Source: Sphaerochaeta globosa str. Buddy (GTDB lineage Bacteria; Spirochaetota; Spirochaetia; Sphaerochaetales; Sphaerochaetaceae). Taken from it: a stretch of 64,000 bases of DNA. Positions 45,372-63,299 of this stretch are shown here, piece after piece. Position 1 is the first letter of the stretch, and each line of letters starts with the position of its first letter. A program made the position numbers and the translations under genes. The notes beneath the pieces are model-generated. The model did not search any database. It worked only from the letters and a program-made list of their open reading frames with translations, and was not told the origin of the DNA. The DNA lies in NCBI RefSeq assembly GCF_000190435.1, contig NC_015152.1, positions 2,486,458-2,550,457 of the forward strand, given 5' to 3'.

Positions 45372-45449
<78 letters not shown>

Positions 45450-45472: not shown

Positions 45473-45514
45473 ATAGCGTAGCTCACCGGAAAAACCGGCA
45501 GCATGTCACATCGC

Positions 45515-45550
45515 AACTGTACCAAAAGGTGTACCAAAAACACCTTTTGG
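45515..45550. repeat. TGTACCAAAA double repeat and 10-bp inverted repeat before the integrase gene
   Basis: AACTGTACCAAAA-GG-TGTACCAAAA occupies 45515-45539, and CCAAAAGGTG / CACCTTTTGG (45522-45531, 45541-45550) forms a perfect hairpin over part of it. A near copy of the double repeat is at 49503-49528. Short direct repeats of this type are often integrase arm-binding sites. Confidence 0.6.
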
Positions 45551-45571
45551 GGTCAGTTTCAGGAGTGGAAC

Positions 45572-46840
45572 ATGAGCCGGAAACCCTTCTATCTTTCCCG
45601 TCATGGTAGCGTTTGGTACGCAAGAATTGTTGATCCCAAAACAGGAAATCAGCTCTCAGCAATAAGCACCGGTCAAACTAATCGGGATATGGCTGTCATG
45701 ACTGTGTCCCGTTGGCTTGTCGAAGGAATTCCTCAAAAACGTATAAAGGCAAAAAGAGATGTCTCTGAAGCCATTACCGTAAATCGATTGTTCAATGTTC
45801 TTCAAGATATTGATCTCACCAATCGGGAAGCTGAGAAGATTATGACCATTCTCAAGCAACGGGGACTGCTCAAGAAGATCAAGGAAGCAGAGGATAGGGA
45901 CCTCATCACCTACCTGCTCGACTTTTACAACTATGACACCAGTCCCTATGTACGGGAGAAGCTTGCACATGGCCAGTCCATCGGAAAGACACACTGCCAA
46001 GACTCAGTAAATCGCGTCAATATCTATTGGAAGAAGTATTTTAAGAAGAGAACACTTTCCAGTATCACCAGGGATGAGTTGAGAGAATTTTCACTCTCTT
46101 TAAAAAAGAAAGGTCTTGCTGCAGCCACCATCAATAAAGTCATGCTTGCCGGTAAGGTTGCCTTTGCTTGGGCCTATCAGGAGGGCTACATTCATACCAA
46201 CCCCAGCGAAGGGCTCAAGAACTTCGTTGGCAAAGCGAAAGAAAGAGGCATTCTCACCGATGAAGAGAATACCGCCCTCTTTGAACAGGAATGGAAGGAA
46301 GAACGATCGTATGTGGGCAATTTGGTTGCCTCCACCTGCGGGCTCAGATCTGGTGAAGTGTTGGGACTCAAAGCTGAGGATATTGGTTTGGATAGGTTGT
46401 TCATCCGTCATTCGTACAGTCCGCTTGATGGGTTGAAAACTCCCAAGAATGGAGAACAACGCCAGGTACCGTTGCTTCCTGAAGTCAGAGAAAAACTACT
46501 TAGCCTTGTCGAGAAGAATCCTTGGGATGATGGGTTCATCTTCTACAGCGACAAGGCAGGCCAGCCTATGGATCACAAGTTTTTAAATGATGGGCTGATG
46601 GAGGCCATGATCAAGATTGGCATTTCTAAGAAAGAAAAGGAAGAACGCAATATCGTCTTCCATAGCTGGAGGCACCGATATGCGGCTAAGATGGCTGACC
46701 TGGTAGATGCTAGAAGCCTTGGGCTGGCCACGGGCCACAAAACGATGGCAATGCTTGAGCATTATGCCGCCCATGCGAATGAAAATCATTTCAAAGCTGT
46801 CAGGGAAGCAACGGAGAAAGCTTTCGGACAGGCAAAGTGA
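45572..46840 (+). CDS. Tyrosine site-specific recombinase (phage/ICE integrase)
   Basis: 422 residues. N-terminal SAM-like core-binding domain (about 150-235) and C-terminal catalytic domain with Arg in CGLRSGEVLGL, HxxR in HSWRHRYA, and the His...Tyr pair in LGLATGHKTMAMLEHYAAH. An N-terminal region of about 100 residues includes an arm-binding-like beta segment (FYLSRHGSVWYARIVD). ATG at 45572 has AGGAG 9-10 nt upstream; the frame extends to 45503 through a hairpin and is not favoured. It lies 127 bp from the tRNA and transcribes away from it. Confidence 0.93.
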   Translation: MSRKPFYLSRHGSVWYARIVDPKTGNQLSAISTGQTNRDMAVMTVSRWLVEGIPQKRIKAKRDVSEAITVNRLFNVLQDIDLTNREAEKIMTILKQRGLLKKIKEAEDRDLITYLLDFYNYDTSPYVREKLAHGQSIGKTHCQDSVNRVNIYWKKYFKKRTLSSITRDELREFSLSLKKKGLAAATINKVMLAGKVAFAWAYQEGYIHTNPSEGLKNFVGKAKERGILTDEENTALFEQEWKEERSYVGNLVASTCGLRSGEVLGLKAEDIGLDRLFIRHSYSPLDGLKTPKNGEQRQVPLLPEVREKLLSLVEKNPWDDGFIFYSDKAGQPMDHKFLNDGLMEAMIKIGISKKEKEERNIVFHSWRHRYAAKMADLVDARSLGLATGHKTMAMLEHYAAHANENHFKAVREATEKAFGQAK

Positions 46841-47283
46841 AGTAACTTACATACAGGGAGAGAACGACTCAAAACAGCGATTTTCCAGTCGTTTTCTCCC
46901 TTATATAATGGGAAAAACTTTTGGACATCCAAATTACGGGGTAGAATGTACTCTAGAGGATGGGACCACAGAAAACCCGTTATTATGACAGTATACAGCT
47001 GAATCTGCATTCTTCCAGGTACCTGAGTAGCCAATTTATTCGGTACCCAGGGCAGCTTCACCAAGCCATTCTCATAGACAGGGGTCAAGCCGACGGACTT
47101 ACCCTGACCGTTCTTGTTCTTGTATTGCAGAAACCAGGAGAAAGTCGGATCAGCAAGATTATCCCCATTGGTGACGGCAGCAAGACAGAACAGGATACCA
47201 TCTTTCCACGTCTGTCCCCCGATGATCAGGTTCTTAATTTCTGCAGTTTCAATCGTCTTCGACCTCAGATGGGCATCAACCAT
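46786..47283 (-). pseudogene. Fragment of a phage tail/baseplate-type gene, 3' end lost
   Basis: From the ATG at 47283 (AGGAGG 6-7 nt upstream) the frame reads 165 residues. The first 130 (IKNLIIGGQTWKDG...LVKLPWVPNKLATQVPGRMQIQLYTV) look like the N-terminal domain of phage tail-associated proteins, where a short helix-strand pattern ends in W.P...A...G...IQL. From about residue 120 the frame runs into the reverse strand of the integrase gene (overlap 46786-46840), so the true 3' part was deleted. It suggests a second, degraded prophage at this locus. Confidence 0.5.
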
Positions 47284-47474
47284 GATTCCTCCTAGCTCTA
47301 TAGCTCAGAGGAAGTTTAACAAATGATTGGTACCCCCGAACCAAGGGGAAATCTAAATCTTCAGAATATTCTGGCCGAATGCTCTTGTGATATGAAGATG
47401 GTGAAACTACACTGAGAGAAATTTTGAACAACTAGGCTGAACAAGAATTTTACTTCAAAACGGAGAATATTATC

Positions 47475-48530
47475 ATGAGTAAAAAGAAAAATAAGCCACT
47501 TGACCTATTTAAAATCGAAGTAGATGAAAGCCTTTTCCATCCAAATTTCAAACAAACAATAATTCCTGGCAATAAAGCAGTCAGGGACGTTCTTACCCAA
47601 TGGGCTGATGGTTTCAAAGATCGTGATGGAAAACTGGCAAAAGAATTCCAAACAACCTATAACTCGGTGTTTTGGGAGTTGTATTTGTTCAATCTATTCA
47701 AACATTGGGGTTTATCGGATGACTTTAGATATGATGCGCCAGATTTTAATATCAATGAATTCAATGGTATCTGTGTCGAAGCTGTAACAGCAAGTAACGC
47801 TCTTGATTCTGACCCTGAATGGATTAACTCTGGAAAAGAACCAGAATTCATTAACTTAGAAAATCCTGATGAACATGCAAAATTTGTAAAGGAATCGACA
47901 ATAAGATTGGCGAATGCCATCTTTTCAAAACTAACTAAATTTAAGAAAAGTTATGCAGAACTCGAACATGTCAAATCGAAACCTTTTATTATTGCACTCG
48001 CTCCCTTCGATCGTCCTTTTTTCTATATACAGACCTCTCAAGCAATCTCACTGCTTTTATATGGAAAGTGGATTAGGCGTATTGATGAAACTACAGGTAG
48101 ATTTGAAAATCTCGATTTCATTCAGAAGGAAAATGGAGCCGATATTAATCTTGGCATATTCAACAATGATAGCTGCTCAGAAATTAGTGCAATAATTTTT
48201 TCAAACGTAGCTACTTTTGGCAAGGTCCAAGCGATGGCTAATAAAATCAAACCATTTCCTGCAATTTTTCAATGGGTCCGATTTAACAAAAATGTATTCG
48301 GGAACCCACATATCGGCGCATCATGGGGAAAAGATTACGATGAGTCTATAGAAGATGGAATCAGTATATTATTGAACCCATTTGCAGATCATCCTGTACC
48401 TGAAGATTTTGTGAAGAAGTTCCAAACTATTCATAGAAGTGCAAATGATATGGATTCTGCTGATAATTCTCTGCTCGCCAGAATGACTCAACGGATAACA
48501 TTAAGGGATGATGATAAAAATTCCATTTAA
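47475..48530 (+). CDS. Predicted PD-(D/E)XK-fold protein, unknown function (candidate cargo/defence gene)
   Basis: 351 residues, AT-rich unlike the backbone. Near residues 66-105 it has the pattern of restriction-endonuclease-fold proteins: FWELYLF (Glu68), DAPDF (Asp90) and CVEAVTA (Glu102); the usual Lys of the third motif is not seen, so activity is uncertain. No TM or signal peptide. The ATG at 47475 has GGAG 9 nt upstream. The one-TM protein gene follows 51 bp later in the same direction. Family unrecognised; nuclease function is inference from the motif pattern. Confidence 0.55.
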   Translation: MSKKKNKPLDLFKIEVDESLFHPNFKQTIIPGNKAVRDVLTQWADGFKDRDGKLAKEFQTTYNSVFWELYLFNLFKHWGLSDDFRYDAPDFNINEFNGICVEAVTASNALDSDPEWINSGKEPEFINLENPDEHAKFVKESTIRLANAIFSKLTKFKKSYAELEHVKSKPFIIALAPFDRPFFYIQTSQAISLLLYGKWIRRIDETTGRFENLDFIQKENGADINLGIFNNDSCSEISAIIFSNVATFGKVQAMANKIKPFPAIFQWVRFNKNVFGNPHIGASWGKDYDESIEDGISILLNPFADHPVPEDFVKKFQTIHRSANDMDSADNSLLARMTQRITLRDDDKNSI

Positions 48531-48581
48531 GACGATTCTAAAATACAAAGTATCATAAATTCATTATGAAGGAGCTGGATT

Positions 48582-49148
48582 ATGGATTTAAAAACATTCA
48601 TTGCCAATATTATTGATTCTGCTATATGGCCAGTATTTCTAATCGCTCTTCTTATCATTTTCAGGAAACCACTAAGGAAACTATTGGGTAGAATTGCCTC
48701 CTTAACTTTTAAAGATGTCGCAGTAGAGTTCTCTGAAGAACTAGCCCAACTTAATGATTTAAATCCTGGTCTAGAGTCCAAGAAACCAGAAAAAAAATCC
48801 TCGCCGCTAAAACAAGTCTCTCTTGATGAAATAGTAAGAGAATCACCGAAAGCGGCAATCCTCATGGGATGGAATCAGTTAGCTGATAGCATTTCCTCAA
48901 ACTTAAGAAGATTAAATCTTAGATCTGAAACTATGCTATTTGATTCAGTCTCTGGAATGGGTAAGCTTATAAGGAATACAGAGCTTGAAAGCGTTACTAG
49001 TTTGGTTTTTCATAAGCTTTACAATCTGAAAAATATGGCTTCCAGTGAAAATGCAAAAATCAGTGAAACAGATGCAAAGGACTATTTGAATAATGTGTCC
49101 TATCTGATAGACAAGATATCTCGTGCAAAACTAAAACTTAACGACTAG
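48582..49148 (+). CDS. Single-TM membrane protein, partner of the PD-(D/E)XK-like protein
   Basis: 188 residues. One N-terminal TM helix (residues 13-28, AIWPVFLIALLIIF) followed by basic residues RKPLRK, so the rest faces the cytoplasm; the segment LTFKDVAVEFSEEL resembles many small uncharacterised membrane proteins. The remainder (50-188) is helical with no known domain. AAGGAG lies 6-8 nt before the ATG. Its tandem with the nuclease-like gene in an integrase-proximal AT-rich segment suggests a two-gene cassette. Confidence 0.55.
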   Translation: MDLKTFIANIIDSAIWPVFLIALLIIFRKPLRKLLGRIASLTFKDVAVEFSEELAQLNDLNPGLESKKPEKKSSPLKQVSLDEIVRESPKAAILMGWNQLADSISSNLRRLNLRSETMLFDSVSGMGKLIRNTELESVTSLVFHKLYNLKNMASSENAKISETDAKDYLNNVSYLIDKISRAKLKLND

Positions 49149-49161
49149 CCAGGTTTCCGAA

Positions 49162-49443
49162 TTACAAGTACAGCACTATGGAGCCCAAGGCCATCCTCAA
49201 ACTCACAAAGAACCAAACATAATAAAGCTGCCAAAACAGCACTCCCCCAGCCACTACCCCTAGCGCATCAGCCAGCAAATCTCCCCAGCTCCAGATGTTC
49301 CCTGGGGCTTTGTGATTACCATACTTTTTCCCTATTCTAAGGAAGATACCACTGAGTACTCCTGCTACCGGATGATGTATCCTTGCCCCCTGTATACTGT
49401 ATAGGAGAACCCTTTGTTTAGTTTTCTCACCACGGAAAGCCAT
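49162..49443 (-). CDS. Short VanZ-like membrane protein, possibly truncated
   Basis: 93 residues. NIWSWGDLLADALGVVAGGVLFW matches the C-terminal VanZ signature (pGR.gswxDxxaDxxGxxxG) and HHPVAGVLSG its first conserved His segment, but the middle of the family, including the DE.hQ motif, is missing and the start is not clearly placed. VanZ proteins are membrane proteins of unclear biochemical role (teicoplanin resistance in one case). It ends 14 nt from the end of the one-TM protein gene on the other strand. Confidence 0.4.
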   Translation of the reverse strand: MAFRGEKTKQRVLLYSIQGARIHHPVAGVLSGIFLRIGKKYGNHKAPGNIWSWGDLLADALGVVAGGVLFWQLYYVWFFVSLRMALGSIVLYL

Positions 49444-49502
49444 TCCGCGGGTATAGTATTATATTTACTTATATAATTTACAATTACATTATTTCCATTT
49501 CT

Positions 49503-49528
49503 AACTGTACCAAAAAAGTGTACCAAAA
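49503..49528. repeat. Second copy of the TGTACCAAAA double repeat
   Basis: AACTGTACCAAAA-AAG-TGTACCAAAA, identical to 45515-45539 except for one extra base in the middle. With that copy it brackets about 4 kb holding the integrase, tail fragment, nuclease/TM pair and VanZ-like gene. Confidence 0.6.
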
Positions 49529-49671
49529 TCTTAAAATTTGCATGATTTTCATACCCTTTCGGGGCATCTTTGCCACCTTCGAAAGTCTATCACCCATCTC
49601 GTTACCTGCATTCATGTGTAGTTCCTCATAGTCCAGCATACTTTGCCGTATCAACCTTGGAGGACACTAAA

Positions 49672-51003
49672 ATGAACGTTAAACCAATTTTCCCTACTGA
49701 TTTCAAAACATATGCTGATGCCGTCAAAATGGCCTATGGAGAAATTAATACCGTAGATCTCAACACACCCCTTATCAAAGGAACATTTATTTCAAAACGC
49801 CTTTGCAGCCTTTTCCCAAGACTCGCATCCAGCCAAGTCCAGCAATTGGCTGCAATGGCTGAGGACAGTCTGGTAAGAGCATGCGGAGAAAATTTTAAAG
49901 GAATGGTTCTCCCACTTCCGGTTCATCAAAAGCTATACAGAACCACATCCAAGGAAGAACTAACGCAAATAACCGACAGTATCAAATCCGCTCTTGACCA
50001 AGGATGCTGGGATCAATACCCAAACACACCGCCATTCAAGATAAGTGAAAGTTGGCTCAAGGGATATCGAAAGCTGCTTATGCCATTCACGTTTAAGCCT
50101 ATACCAAGCAATTTAATCGATGCAGCGAATAAGGCCCTCAATGAAATGGAGGATCAAATCCTCAGATTCACAGAGGACCAGTACCAAAACCACCCGGCTG
50201 ACTTGTTTGCATTGAGCATCATGAAAATCGTGGAACAATACTGTCAAGACAATCTAGCATCCATGTTATCGACCTATCCTAACTTCCCGGAGGGTAAGGG
50301 AGCCTCTGGTTCTGAGTGGGGGCCAGTACTTGCGATAAAATGGTATGCGATACTTCAGGACCATATCAGGAGCATCGATGAAAGCCAATATATGAAGGAG
50401 CAATACCTACAGCAAGTACTGCAACAAAAAGCGATATCCGTGGAAACTTTCATGACTCTTGATATTGAGATAGCCTTGGAACTTCAGAATGAAGCTGTAC
50501 TTCTTCACCAGCAGAGTCTCGAAAAGAAACCACAAACCAAAAAAGCAGACCCAAGATCTGCAAAGCTGATTCCTTGGATGCGAGGAGAAGAAAACCTTCA
50601 AGCATTATGGAAGGTACTTACTGAGCATGAGTATGTTAAAAACACAGAGTTCCAGGATTTCCTAAGTGGTCGTTTCCAACTTGTTGACAAACATTCCAAG
50701 AATAATCGAACAACCCTTGCACCGAAAATCAGATGGTACAGCTCTCTTGACAACCTGCTCAGAATGCTCGAAAGCCTTGTGGAATTTAATATAATCAGTA
50801 TTGTTCCTTTCGGGAAAAAAACTTGTACGAAAACTGCTGGAAAGATCTACAACCTCATTGAAACTCATTTTGCCAACAGTGATGGAATCGACTTCAAGTT
50901 GGACGCCATACGAAAGGCAGCACAGCGCAAGAGGAACCCTGAGGCAAAATTTGACAAGAGCTTCAATGGCAGCGTTCTGAGAACAATTCGATCAATGCAA
51001 TAA
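49672..51003 (+). CDS. Unknown protein of the accessory region
   Basis: 443 residues, family not recognised. Hydrophilic and predicted mostly helical, with no TM segment, signal peptide or nucleotide-binding motif; Gln-rich helical stretches near 255-300, C-terminal Arg/Lys-rich. It may be a phage or ICE regulator because it stands alone in front of the HTH genes with its own terminator, but this is only context. GGAGG lies 8-9 nt before the ATG at 49672; the frame further to 49570 has no ribosome site. Confidence 0.6.
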   Translation: MNVKPIFPTDFKTYADAVKMAYGEINTVDLNTPLIKGTFISKRLCSLFPRLASSQVQQLAAMAEDSLVRACGENFKGMVLPLPVHQKLYRTTSKEELTQITDSIKSALDQGCWDQYPNTPPFKISESWLKGYRKLLMPFTFKPIPSNLIDAANKALNEMEDQILRFTEDQYQNHPADLFALSIMKIVEQYCQDNLASMLSTYPNFPEGKGASGSEWGPVLAIKWYAILQDHIRSIDESQYMKEQYLQQVLQQKAISVETFMTLDIEIALELQNEAVLLHQQSLEKKPQTKKADPRSAKLIPWMRGEENLQALWKVLTEHEYVKNTEFQDFLSGRFQLVDKHSKNNRTTLAPKIRWYSSLDNLLRMLESLVEFNIISIVPFGKKTCTKTAGKIYNLIETHFANSDGIDFKLDAIRKAAQRKRNPEAKFDKSFNGSVLRTIRSMQ

Positions 51004-54740: not shown

Positions 54741-55232
54741 TTATTCAAAAATAAAGGGTCGTGCAAACTTTGCCTCATGCTCCTTCAAGTAGCAAGTAAG
54801 GAACAGCATATCTGAGCATGAACCCAGCCTATTCTGAAGCATGTTGAAGATTTCATTATCCATTTGATCCTCGACATCCATCATATAGAAGTATTTACCC
54901 TTGACCATAGTCAATGCTCTAATGAAGTACTCCGCACTATCCAACTTCACACTCAGTATGTAATCAAAAAACATATCGATAGGGAGTCCGTCCGGTGAAT
55001 GGTAAAAAGCTTCCTCGATATGCTCTTTCACAACTTTCTGACCATCATATTCAGAGAACATCTTGAAACACTCATCCAGGGTCAGACAAGTGTAATCATT
55101 GTCTTTTTCAAGGATGATTCGATCAAGCCCGTCTTCTTTCTCAAGCCTTTCAGCAGTCTGTTCGGCCAGCATCCACTTTCTGGACATTGGAGATGCAAAT
55201 GTGTTTGGTGATGGTATATTTTCTTGCTGCAT
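54741..55232 (-). CDS. Unknown protein, last gene of the minus-strand recombination operon
   Basis: 163 residues, acidic, no family, no TM segment. Helical with several Met-rich stretches near 90-125. GGGAGCGAGG upstream of the ATG at 55232 contains a moderate ribosome site. Separated from the upstream small gene by 150 bp, so it may have its own start of transcription. Confidence 0.55.
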   Translation of the reverse strand: MQQENIPSPNTFASPMSRKWMLAEQTAERLEKEDGLDRIILEKDNDYTCLTLDECFKMFSEYDGQKVVKEHIEEAFYHSPDGLPIDMFFDYILSVKLDSAEYFIRALTMVKGKYFYMMDVEDQMDNEIFNMLQNRLGSCSDMLFLTCYLKEHEAKFARPFIFE

Positions 55233-59854: not shown

Positions 59855-60646
59855 CTATGATACTAGACCAAGACTCCTGCGGTACTCAAGAGGGCTCCGC
59901 CCTCCCAAGGACATTTTGATTCGTTTCTCATTATACCAATAGATGTAATCATCAAGCAGTGCACAAAACTCTTCGATTGATACACCAAACCATGAGCGGG
60001 AATAGAACATCTCATTCTTCAATCGGCCGAAAAAACCTTCGCATGCCGAATTGTCGGGTGAGCAGCCTTTCTTCGACATTGAACGAACCAACCCGGCATT
60101 ATCCATTCTCTCAATCCAGCCGGGCCAACGGTAATGACTCCCCCGATCGGTATGGACCAATGGGTGCTCACCGTCTTCCAGTGTTCCTACAGCCCCATCC
60201 AGCATCGAGTTCACCAGCTCCGCATTGGGGCTCGTACCACGGGTCCAGGAGGTGACGTAGCCGTCAAAACAATCAATCACCGGAGAAAGATATACTTTGC
60301 CGGCGGGAATGCTGAATTCCGTGATGTCGCTCAGCCATTTCTCATTCGGATTCTCGGCATGGAAGTCACGCTTGATGATGTTCTCGACCTCAGGGCTGAG
60401 CTCACCCTTGTATGAGCTGTACTTCTTTCTCTTCACGGAAGGAACGACAAGGTTTTCCTCGTGCATAAGGCGAAGAACCACCTTCTCTGAAATGGTGCTT
60501 CCATTGGATGTCATGACTGCATGCAGTCGGCGATAACCGTAACACTGCCGGTTCTCAGAGAACACATTCCTCAGGTCTTTCCTGAACAGCTCATGCTTAT
60601 CTTTCTTCATGGCTTGGATTTTGTAGAAAGTACTGCTTTTTCGCAT
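59855..60646 (-). CDS. IS3-family transposase OrfB (integrase core)
   Basis: 263 residues. HTH_21 region (about 30-75, CYGYRRLHAVM), then the rve core: SDITEF (first Asp), HTDRGSHY (second Asp), SACEGFFGRLKNE (Glu), and RIKMSLGGRSPLEYR at the end. In an active element it is made as an OrfAB fusion by -1 frameshifting; here the ATG at 60646 is the only start in frame with the core, because a one-base insertion separates it from the frameshift product. Possibly a separate but non-functional protein. Confidence 0.88.
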   Translation of the reverse strand: MRKSSTFYKIQAMKKDKHELFRKDLRNVFSENRQCYGYRRLHAVMTSNGSTISEKVVLRLMHEENLVVPSVKRKKYSSYKGELSPEVENIIKRDFHAENPNEKWLSDITEFSIPAGKVYLSPVIDCFDGYVTSWTRGTSPNAELVNSMLDGAVGTLEDGEHPLVHTDRGSHYRWPGWIERMDNAGLVRSMSKKGCSPDNSACEGFFGRLKNEMFYSRSWFGVSIEEFCALLDDYIYWYNEKRIKMSLGGRSPLEYRRSLGLVS

Positions 60647-60703
60647 ATGCAGGGAGGGCAGCAGCCTGCCTTATGGTGTACCTGCCTGTAAGGGCATCGA
60701 TAA

Positions 60704-61417
60704 TCATGGCTTTCTCCCTGTTGGAGAGTGTATCGATACCGATGCCCTCATCTTTTTTATTATTTCAGCCGCCTTTTCAAGAATATCCTTCTCCATCTGG
60801 AGCTTCTGTACCTGCTTCTGCAGCCTGTCCCGTTCTTCTTTCAAGTCGTTGCATTCAGCCCTCAGCTGAATCTCCTGTTCTGATGAAGCCTTCTCGGATT
60901 CTTTTTGGGATTTCCTTCTCATCTCGGGGTTGCTTACCTCCCCAAGCAATTGCCGTTTCCAATGCCAGACCGTTCTCCGGGATACTCCAATCTCTGATTG
61001 GATCTGTTTTGAAGTCTTTTCACCGGAAGCTACAGACACTACAGCGGCCATCTTTTGCTTGTCTGTGCATTTTACAACAGGCTGTTCCCTTTTCAAAGGT
61101 TGAAAATCGCAAGAAGAGTCTTGGCTGACCCATTTCCCAAGAAGTTGGCGGCAAGGATATCCGAGAGCCTTGACCGTACGGGCGAATCCTCTCCCGTGCT
61201 CCTGGTAGTATTTGACAGCAACCGCTTTTTGCTCTGCTGTGTATCCTGATTGCATTCGAGACTTCTTGCGCAGGTCTCCATTCTCAAGGTATTCCCGATA
61301 CCATAGCGTAAGCATCCTGGTGGTTGGATACCCAAGTTCCCTTACGACAGCAGAAGCACTTTTGTCAAACTTTATGTAAAGTTCAACGGCTTTCTTCCTC
61401 TCTTCGTATGAATACAT
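60704..61417 (-). CDS. IS3-family transposase OrfA
   Basis: 237 residues. Three helix-turn-helix-like segments (about 5-50, 58-105, 115-160; SYEERKKAVELYIKFD, YTAEQKAVAVKYYQEHG, DKQKMAAVVSVASGEKTSKQIQSEIGVSRRTVWHWKRQL) for binding the IS ends, then a coiled coil (175-225). The length is in the longer IS150-like range. AAGGAG lies 6 nt before the ATG. The slippery A_AAA_AAG is at 60758-60752. Confidence 0.9.
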   Translation of the reverse strand: MYSYEERKKAVELYIKFDKSASAVVRELGYPTTRMLTLWYREYLENGDLRKKSRMQSGYTAEQKAVAVKYYQEHGRGFARTVKALGYPCRQLLGKWVSQDSSCDFQPLKREQPVVKCTDKQKMAAVVSVASGEKTSKQIQSEIGVSRRTVWHWKRQLLGEVSNPEMRRKSQKESEKASSEQEIQLRAECNDLKEERDRLQKQVQKLQMEKDILEKAAEIIKKMRASVSIHSPTGRKP

Positions 61418-61661: not shown

Positions 61662-63299
61662 ATGGCAACGTTGCTGAAGCAGGTAGAAGTAATGAACACA
61701 ATCATCGAACTGAAACGGCAGGGCATAGCCCAATCGGACATCGCAAAAGTGCTGCGGAACATGAATCTCAAGCCACCGTCAGCGCCGACGATCCGCAAGT
61801 ACTACACCATGAATGATGCCCCATCGGCAAGCCAGTTGGCAAGCCCCTACCAGAAGGACAAAGCCTTCGACGATCCGGTTTGCAGGGAAATCATCATCAG
61901 CACCCTGCAAGCCAACTGCAACAACAAGCAGCTGCGGATAAGCTCGTTGTACGACCTGCTGGAAGAGATGCTGGTGGATACGGGAAAGATGCAATCCCTG
62001 CCCGGCAACCAGCAGACGCTTCGCAATTATTGCGCACATCTGAGAAAAACCGAACAGGTCACGAGCCCTCCCGTCGAGGCAAGGCTCTGCAATTACATCG
62101 AGTCGCCTCCCCCTGGAGTGCAGATCCAGCTCGACTACGGCGTCCAGAAAATCAACGGGGGGGAGCATGTGCACTTCCTCTGCATCAGGATGCGTTACAG
62201 CCGGCTCTTGTTCGTTCGGGCCCAGGACCATCGGTTCAATGCAGTGGAAACATGCCGGACGCTCTTCCTCTTCTTCGTCTACATCAAGGGAAGGCCGAAG
62301 GAACTTGTCATCGACCAGGACAGCTGCATGGTGGTCCAGGAAACCCTCGGGGAGATCATAGCGACAAGGGACTTCCAGGCATTCCTGCATGAGCAGGACA
62401 TCGAGTTGAGGGTCCTTCACAAGGCCGACCCCCAGAGCAAGGGAAGTGTTGAGAATCTAGTTGCTTATGTAGAGAAGAATTACTTAAGTGCAAGGCTGGA
62501 CCAACCGGCCCAGAAACTCATTGCAGGAATTGCCGACTGGTGCAGGAGGAAGAACACCAGGGATCTCAACAAGGCAACCCACAGATTGCCGATGCAGCAA
62601 TTCCTTGAGGAGGAGCAGCCGGCCTTGAGGCCGAACCTGCCGTCGGCCTATGGAGGCTTGGCCATGCTGACGGGACCGGTCTCGATAGACAAGAACCGCA
62701 TCATCACCTACAAGACAAACGGGTACTCGGTACCGCCCGCCTACCGTTTCAAGGCTGTCTACTACCGCATAGTGAGTGGTGTCATGTTCGTCTTTTCCGA
62801 TGAGCAGGGGACCCTGCTCATACGCCAGCATCAGGTTGCACCAGCGGAGGTCAAGTACAAAACCTTCATCCATCCGGACGACATGAGAATGCCTTCCCTC
62901 AAGTGGATGAATGTCAAGGATACCTTGCTGCGAAGATATCCCAGCCCGAACATGCTGCATTTCCTCAATGGGGTCTGCAAGGAGAACCCACACTACCGGG
63001 AACCACAGCTGAGTGCCATTCTTGCATGGCTGGATAAGCAACAACCCGAGTCAGCCTTTCTGGATTCGGTGCTGACCCGCTGCTGCGAGACGTTCAGCTA
63101 CAAGGTCTCCCAGTTCCAGGCAATCTACGGCGGGCTTCAGAAGGAATGTTCCATCCATGATGAACTGTACGCAGATGACGGCATGCAGCCCTCGTTCATC
63201 ACCATGCCCAACGGGGTAGGCGTGCAGGTCAGGGGCTCCGATGCCTACCAGGATCTTTTCCAGAAGAAGGTGCAGCAGACTGCAATGGGGGGTGTGTGA
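61662..63299 (+). CDS. istA: IS21-family transposase IstA
   Basis: 545 residues. N-terminal helix-turn-helix (residues 1-45, ELKRQGIAQSDIAKVLRN), RNase H-like core with D-D-E residues in QIQLDYGVQK, LVIDQDSC and KGSVENLVAYVEKNYL, and a long C-terminal region. AAGGAGGCC lies 8 nt before the ATG. With IstB it carries out transposition. Appears intact. Confidence 0.92.
   Translation: MATLLKQVEVMNTIIELKRQGIAQSDIAKVLRNMNLKPPSAPTIRKYYTMNDAPSASQLASPYQKDKAFDDPVCREIIISTLQANCNNKQLRISSLYDLLEEMLVDTGKMQSLPGNQQTLRNYCAHLRKTEQVTSPPVEARLCNYIESPPPGVQIQLDYGVQKINGGEHVHFLCIRMRYSRLLFVRAQDHRFNAVETCRTLFLFFVYIKGRPKELVIDQDSCMVVQETLGEIIATRDFQAFLHEQDIELRVLHKADPQSKGSVENLVAYVEKNYLSARLDQPAQKLIAGIADWCRRKNTRDLNKATHRLPMQQFLEEEQPALRPNLPSAYGGLAMLTGPVSIDKNRIITYKTNGYSVPPAYRFKAVYYRIVSGVMFVFSDEQGTLLIRQHQVAPAEVKYKTFIHPDDMRMPSLKWMNVKDTLLRRYPSPNMLHFLNGVCKENPHYREPQLSAILAWLDKQQPESAFLDSVLTRCCETFSYKVSQFQAIYGGLQKECSIHDELYADDGMQPSFITMPNGVGVQVRGSDAYQDLFQKKVQQTAMGGV

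Follow-up and report, generated by a model that had tools for sequence, protein, structure and literature searches.

The two adjacent genes described here are, with high probability, two independent, single-gene defence-type genes that occupy the cargo slot beside the integrase of a prophage-like element of ~62 kb, integrated at a tRNA-Met. Both lie in the window, by which we mean the whole stretch of 64,000 nucleotides of Sphaerochaeta globosa DNA that was analysed. Gene 1 (47475..48530, plus strand) encodes a 351-residue homologue of PD-T7-5, a predicted PD-(D/E)XK-type nuclease, on the evidence of the PADLOC profile PDLC04110 and a 68-sequence alignment. Gene 2 (48582..49148, plus strand) encodes a 188-residue, single-TM, 'WP-signature' HEPN (DUF4145-type) protein, on the evidence of its HEPN fold and a 23-member alignment. 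An earlier note had proposed an undescribed system; this proposal does not stand, gene 1 being a PD-T7-5 protein and gene 2 a member of the WP-TM DUF4145/HEPN family (Anantharaman et al. 2013). Judged from sequence comparison, each gene is most likely a remote member of a family that has been described before, rather than half of a new two-gene defence system.

The cargo slot of a tRNA-Met element

The earlier description of the reading frames, two AT-rich, co-directional ORFs of 351 and 188 residues with ribosome sites, was exact in its coordinates. Both frames are intact, both lie on the plus strand and a gap of 51 bp separates them. A Shine-Dalgarno-like GGAG precedes the start codon of each gene, and the G+C contents are 35.9% (gene 1) and 35.4% (gene 2) versus 49.5% for the window. 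Promoter-like and terminator-like sites around the two genes did not exceed chance level.

Where do these genes reside? The tRNA-Met that serves as attachment site (45372..45445, plus strand) was located with ARAGORN. The attL core, a piece of this tRNA (45404..45446, plus strand), has an exact 43-bp copy 62 kb downstream, the attR, at G000:C1:2593873-2593915; gene 1 and gene 2 therefore lie just inside attL of an element of ~62 kb, which extends beyond the window end. Its tyrosine integrase (PF00589, E 2e-15) occupies 45503..46840 on the plus strand. A sister element in a same-genus genome (G009) uses the same tRNA-Met and has an integrase 92% identical to this one; since that identity runs from 45572 on, 45572 is the more likely start. 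Among the genes of the ~62 kb element are ones of phage type for replication and recombination (DnaB-like helicase, SSB, NinB, Erf, exonuclease and repressor); it also encodes ZacA, ZacB and ZacC, ArdC, a type III-type methyltransferase and a shortened terminase. As predicted from its sequence, it is a prophage-like and defence-rich element.

The DNA of the sister element (L168) aligns to the window up to 46975 and resumes at 50513, with other genes between. This alignment defines a variable cargo slot (46976..49500, right edge approximate) between the integrase and the backbone gene at 49570-51003. We read it as a cargo slot because the same slot in the sister element is filled with other cargo. 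The placement of the pair as mobile-element cargo next to an integrase and a tRNA was thus correct, with a tyrosine integrase and a tRNA-Met both found and the slot variable in the sister element. The sister cargo includes a protein of 200 residues (L168:4792-5394, minus strand) that has a TM-like segment at its N-terminus and matches nothing in Pfam or PADLOC.

The repeats said to bracket the two genes exist, as pairs of TGTACCAAAA, yet they are not cassette ends, being part of the backbone that is shared with the sister element. One pair lies near attL (45518..45539, plus strand, copies at 45518/45530) and is a probable integrase arm site; the other lies at the right edge of the cargo slot (49506..49528, plus strand, copies at 49506/49519). 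These four copies in two pairs compare with 0.11 expected. At the place equivalent to 45518..45539 the sister element has a TGTGCCAAA/TGTGCCAAAA pair near attL, and it has an equivalent pair at the place of 49506..49528 also. The pairs at both edges change in step, the TGTACC of one element standing against TGTGCC, or something close to it, in the other. One more copy, unpaired, is found ~127 bp before attR. We rejected the repeats as ends of a two-gene cassette, since the sister element, whose cargo differs, has them at corresponding points of its backbone. The matching base changes at both edges in both elements mark them as backbone repeats, which are probably the integrase arm sites of the element.

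Several other genes were recorded in passing. At 54744-55232 (minus strand) the window encodes 163 residues, of which 108-160 match the anti-CRISPR AcrIC5 (Pfam PF22147, E 8e-22). AcrIC5-type matches occur a second time in the same genome and in two same-genus genomes; the type I-C protein Csd1 (Cas8c) was not found in the organism's own genome. The candidate defence genes ZacA, ZacB and ZacC lie in the right-hand part of the element, at G000:C1:2581409-2587834 (L158:11409-14768, L159:1593-2834 and L170). Also inside it are a 950-residue protein, most of whose length matches a type III methyltransferase profile (L157:14157-17009, minus strand), an ArdC-like anti-restriction protein with a metallopeptidase domain (L157:5520-6461, minus strand) and a terminase large subunit, apparently shortened and intein-like (L157:11738-12907, plus strand; LAGLIDADG match, NTPVLTKTGWKKHGELQVGDS). 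Two near-identical two-ORF insertion sequences stand in opposite orientation, at window 59855-61417 (minus strand) and L157:969-2534 (plus strand). The former adjoins an IS21-like transposase at 61662-63299, the family names being assigned by reading only.

Gene 1, a PD-T7-5 homologue

PADLOC PD-T7-5 (PDLC04110) matches gene 1 with E 8e-100 and 332 bits over positions 1-341 of 346. PADLOC PD-T7-1 gives E 4e-43, with a match starting only at profile position 102, and PHROG 8571 (function unknown) matches also. Pfam and NCBIfam hold no model matching gene 1. PD-T7-5 is an E. coli anti-phage protein discovered by experiment (Vassallo et al. 2022, PMC9519451). That study reports direct immunity from 7/11 systems with DNA-binding or nuclease-like parts, a statement in which PD-T7-5 is not named (PMC9519451). 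A review places PD-T7-1 and PD-T7-5 under PD(D/E)XK nucleases (PMC10952713), and for both there is a low-probability prediction of an RmuC-like domain (PMC10270631).

The identification of gene 1 as a PD-(D/E)XK-type protein, first made from the motifs FWELYLF, DAPDF and VEAVTA, is supported: all three are present, E68, D90 and E102 are invariant in 68 sequences, and the match is to PD-T7-5. Across the aligned sequences the invariant residues are K53, E57, Q59, E68, Y70, P89, D90, E102, K152, Y160 and some others, and gene 1 keeps every one of them. The third-motif lysine had been reported missing from gene 1, and it is missing from all 68 aligned relatives as well. All 68 sequences have Thr, Val or Ala two positions past E102, so that the canonical lysine of (D/E)xK is absent family-wide. 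What might take its place? The invariant K152 might substitute for it in the PD-T7-5 family; a family-wide loss with an invariant candidate substitute is open to mutational test.

The AlphaFold2 model of gene 1 is confident (pLDDT 91). Foldseek returned no match with E <0.001 for it in the PDB. With VIA-align, many rows are restriction-fold enzymes (PspGI, Nt.BspD6I, SfsA, EcoRV, Kpn2I, Bse634I, FokI, MspJI, Shedu, Hjc and DdmD), at Z of only 3-5. Heading these rows, at Z 5.1, is a protein whose function is unknown, not a PD-(D/E)XK enzyme. Structure prediction, put forward earlier as a check on the nuclease fold, thus gave a good model and restriction-fold rows at low Z, with another protein at the top; the matches agree with a PD-(D/E)XK fold, short of proof. 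Profile searches, the other check put forward, led from gene 1 to PD-T7-5 and from gene 2 relatives to DUF4145/HEPN models, the latter below curated cut-offs. We conclude that gene 1 belongs to the PD-T7-5 family of predicted PD-(D/E)XK-type proteins. By analogy with PD-T7-5, it would most likely act alone, cleaving or blocking the nucleic acid of incoming phage.

How widespread is this family? Single-protein scans of the genome and viral collections found no gene 1 relatives, which came to light only when the query was an alignment or tblastn was used. As many as 101 plasmid records and 13 phage records carry relatives, as do 105 genome-contig stretches recovered with an alignment, of which 80 were kept. 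These genomes come from Proteobacteria, Cyanobacteria, Planctomycetes, Acidobacteria, Firmicutes and other phyla, and the plasmid and genome relatives likewise score best against PD-T7-5. Identity to gene 1 is ~30-43%, at which an altered function is possible. Matches occur in only 2/296 sampled genomes of the window's own phylum, one of them the genome of the window, and gene 1 was not found in any other of 25 same-genus genomes. Given this scarcity in phylum and genus, gene 1 was probably acquired horizontally. A family found in E. coli is now extended to a genus in which no other copy was found.

Gene 2, a membrane-anchored HEPN protein

In the gene 2 protein a single hydrophobic helix lies at the N-terminus, and RKPLRK comes after it. 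Four profile libraries gave no credible family score for it. Matches to KRAB and DUF1599, and to repebody and oxysterol proteins in the PDB, were rejected as weak chance hits. A single-protein scan with the gene 2 of the window found no relatives either, alignment or tblastn queries being needed. With tblastn, remote relatives appeared on plasmids and in one Pseudomonas phage; DUF4145 and HEPN models pick up two of them, at scores under the curated cut-offs. More relatives came from genomes and viral contigs, the viral ones mostly at contig ends.

Full-length family members have a TM helix bearing Trp-Pro at the N-terminus and a helical domain at the C-terminus, which in most of them contains R-N-x3-H. 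W16-P17 is invariant in a 14-member alignment, and the Trp-Pro is also kept in the enlarged, 23-member alignment, one truncated gene call excepted. In the model of the C-terminal domain of gene 2 (residues 79-184) pLDDT is mostly ~90, the TM and linker part being less certain. Its best structural matches are HEPN domains (Z 11.5, 10.9 and 10.5; top rmsd 2.3 over 101 residues); AbiA follows at Z 8.4 and HepS of the Gifsy-1 prophage at Z 8.2. The earlier description of gene 2, one TM helix and a helical part in the cytoplasm, is borne out, the helical part being HEPN-type. We conclude that gene 2 is a member of the WP-TM DUF4145/HEPN family, with a HEPN fold in its predicted structure. Anantharaman et al. 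(2013) described DUF4145-overlapping HEPN proteins that have just one TM helix and strictly conserve a WP signature, for which they proposed a role in RNA processing at the inner membrane upon stimulus (PMC3710099).

A typical WP-TM HEPN protein probably cleaves RNA at the membrane once a signal arrives. The R-x4-6-H catalytic pair is lacking in gene 2, in which K150 and S155 replace R and H. Because of these replacements gene 2 more likely has a non-catalytic role, probably in RNA binding or regulation, and one separate from that of gene 1. The lost catalytic residues, together with an element disturbed by insertion sequences and a shortened terminase, might instead mark both genes as decayed passengers without function. 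We consider this highly improbable: both frames are intact, and gene 1 keeps all the residues that are invariant in 68 PD-T7-5 sequences.

Association of the two genes and comparison with known systems

Do the two genes travel together? We assembled 91 PD-T7-5-type loci with flanks, 11 from plasmids and phages and 80 from genomes (one of them of PD-T7-1 type, with a few contigs stopping short), and examined 4-5 kb of flank. A gene 2 relative lies that close in only 1/91 loci, that of a marine Pseudomonas (L093). There the gene 2 relative comes first after a tyrosine recombinase (integron-integrase-like, with a Pfam integrase match) and the PD-T7-5 gene comes fourth, and one and the same attC-like repeat of ~75 bp stands behind the genes. 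By these repeats the two are separately mobile integron cassettes. A clear full-length gene 2 occurs in 1/30 PD-T7-5 genomes, this Pseudomonas being the one, versus ~9/397 other sampled genomes of the phylum. Across the PD-T7-5 loci no common downstream neighbour was found, and about half lack a co-directional gene within 200 bp. The earlier view of the pair as a system fails on this point, 1/91 loci having both genes and that one in separate integron cassettes. We conclude from these loci that gene 1 and gene 2 are not a conserved pair or functional unit.

Co-direction, the 51 bp gap and the shared base composition would also fit an operon with joint function. On the strength of the same strand, the short gap and the similar A+T content, one may suppose that the two form a genuine system confined to this lineage, with the inactive membrane HEPN protein as the sensor of infection or as a tether that restrains the PD-T7-5 protein at the membrane; loss of the HEPN catalytic pair could suit such a regulatory role. 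We regard this as unlikely, since the 91 loci gave no other instance of the pair as neighbours, the single nearby case is in separate cassettes and PD-T7-5 relatives lack a common downstream partner. That the catalytically dead HEPN protein here serves the PD-T7-5 protein as sensor or tether, so that a single-gene defence protein has turned into a two-gene, membrane-linked variant, we hold to be decidedly improbable. A toxin-antitoxin pair, whichever of the two genes supplied the toxin, would suit a small co-directional pair on a mobile element, and HEPN domains are common in such systems (PMC3710099). However, the relatives of each gene occur without the other, no MNT partner is present and the catalytic motif of this HEPN copy is lost, so we give this reading very little credence.

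Independence of the two genes is preferred because they come near one another in 1/91 loci, and there as separate integron cassettes. The two may share a transcript through adjacency, and both may serve the defence of the lysogen. The neighbours of gene 2 relatives include defence-type genes (TrlF ATPase, Mrr-like nuclease, DUF262/DUF4917, R-M, GmrSD, KwaB-like and DUF5343 with HEPN_Swt1); prophage ends are another setting. The integrase-proximal cargo slot of this genus's prophage-like elements and the WP-TM HEPN family are thus places to seek defence genes, with the caution that adjacency inside such slots does not make a system.

How do the two proteins compare with known systems? Gene 1 resembles PD-T7-5 in its full-length match (341/346 positions), its size and its carriage on mobile elements. 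It differs in being divergent in sequence, in sitting in a genus without another copy found and in being followed by a HEPN-TM gene, a neighbour unseen beside other members. With PD-T7-1 (PMC9519451) it is homologous in the nuclease part (E 4e-43), but lacks the ~100-residue N-terminal part of that protein. Gene 2 shares with the WP-TM DUF4145/HEPN proteins (PMC3710099) the TM helix with WP, the cytoplasmic HEPN domain and carriage on mobile elements, whereas its R-N-x3-H pair is replaced (K150, S155). With AbiA and AbiV, of phage defence, and HepS, of the Gifsy-1 prophage, it has in common the HEPN fold; it has no visible sequence-level relation to them, and adds the WP-TM module.
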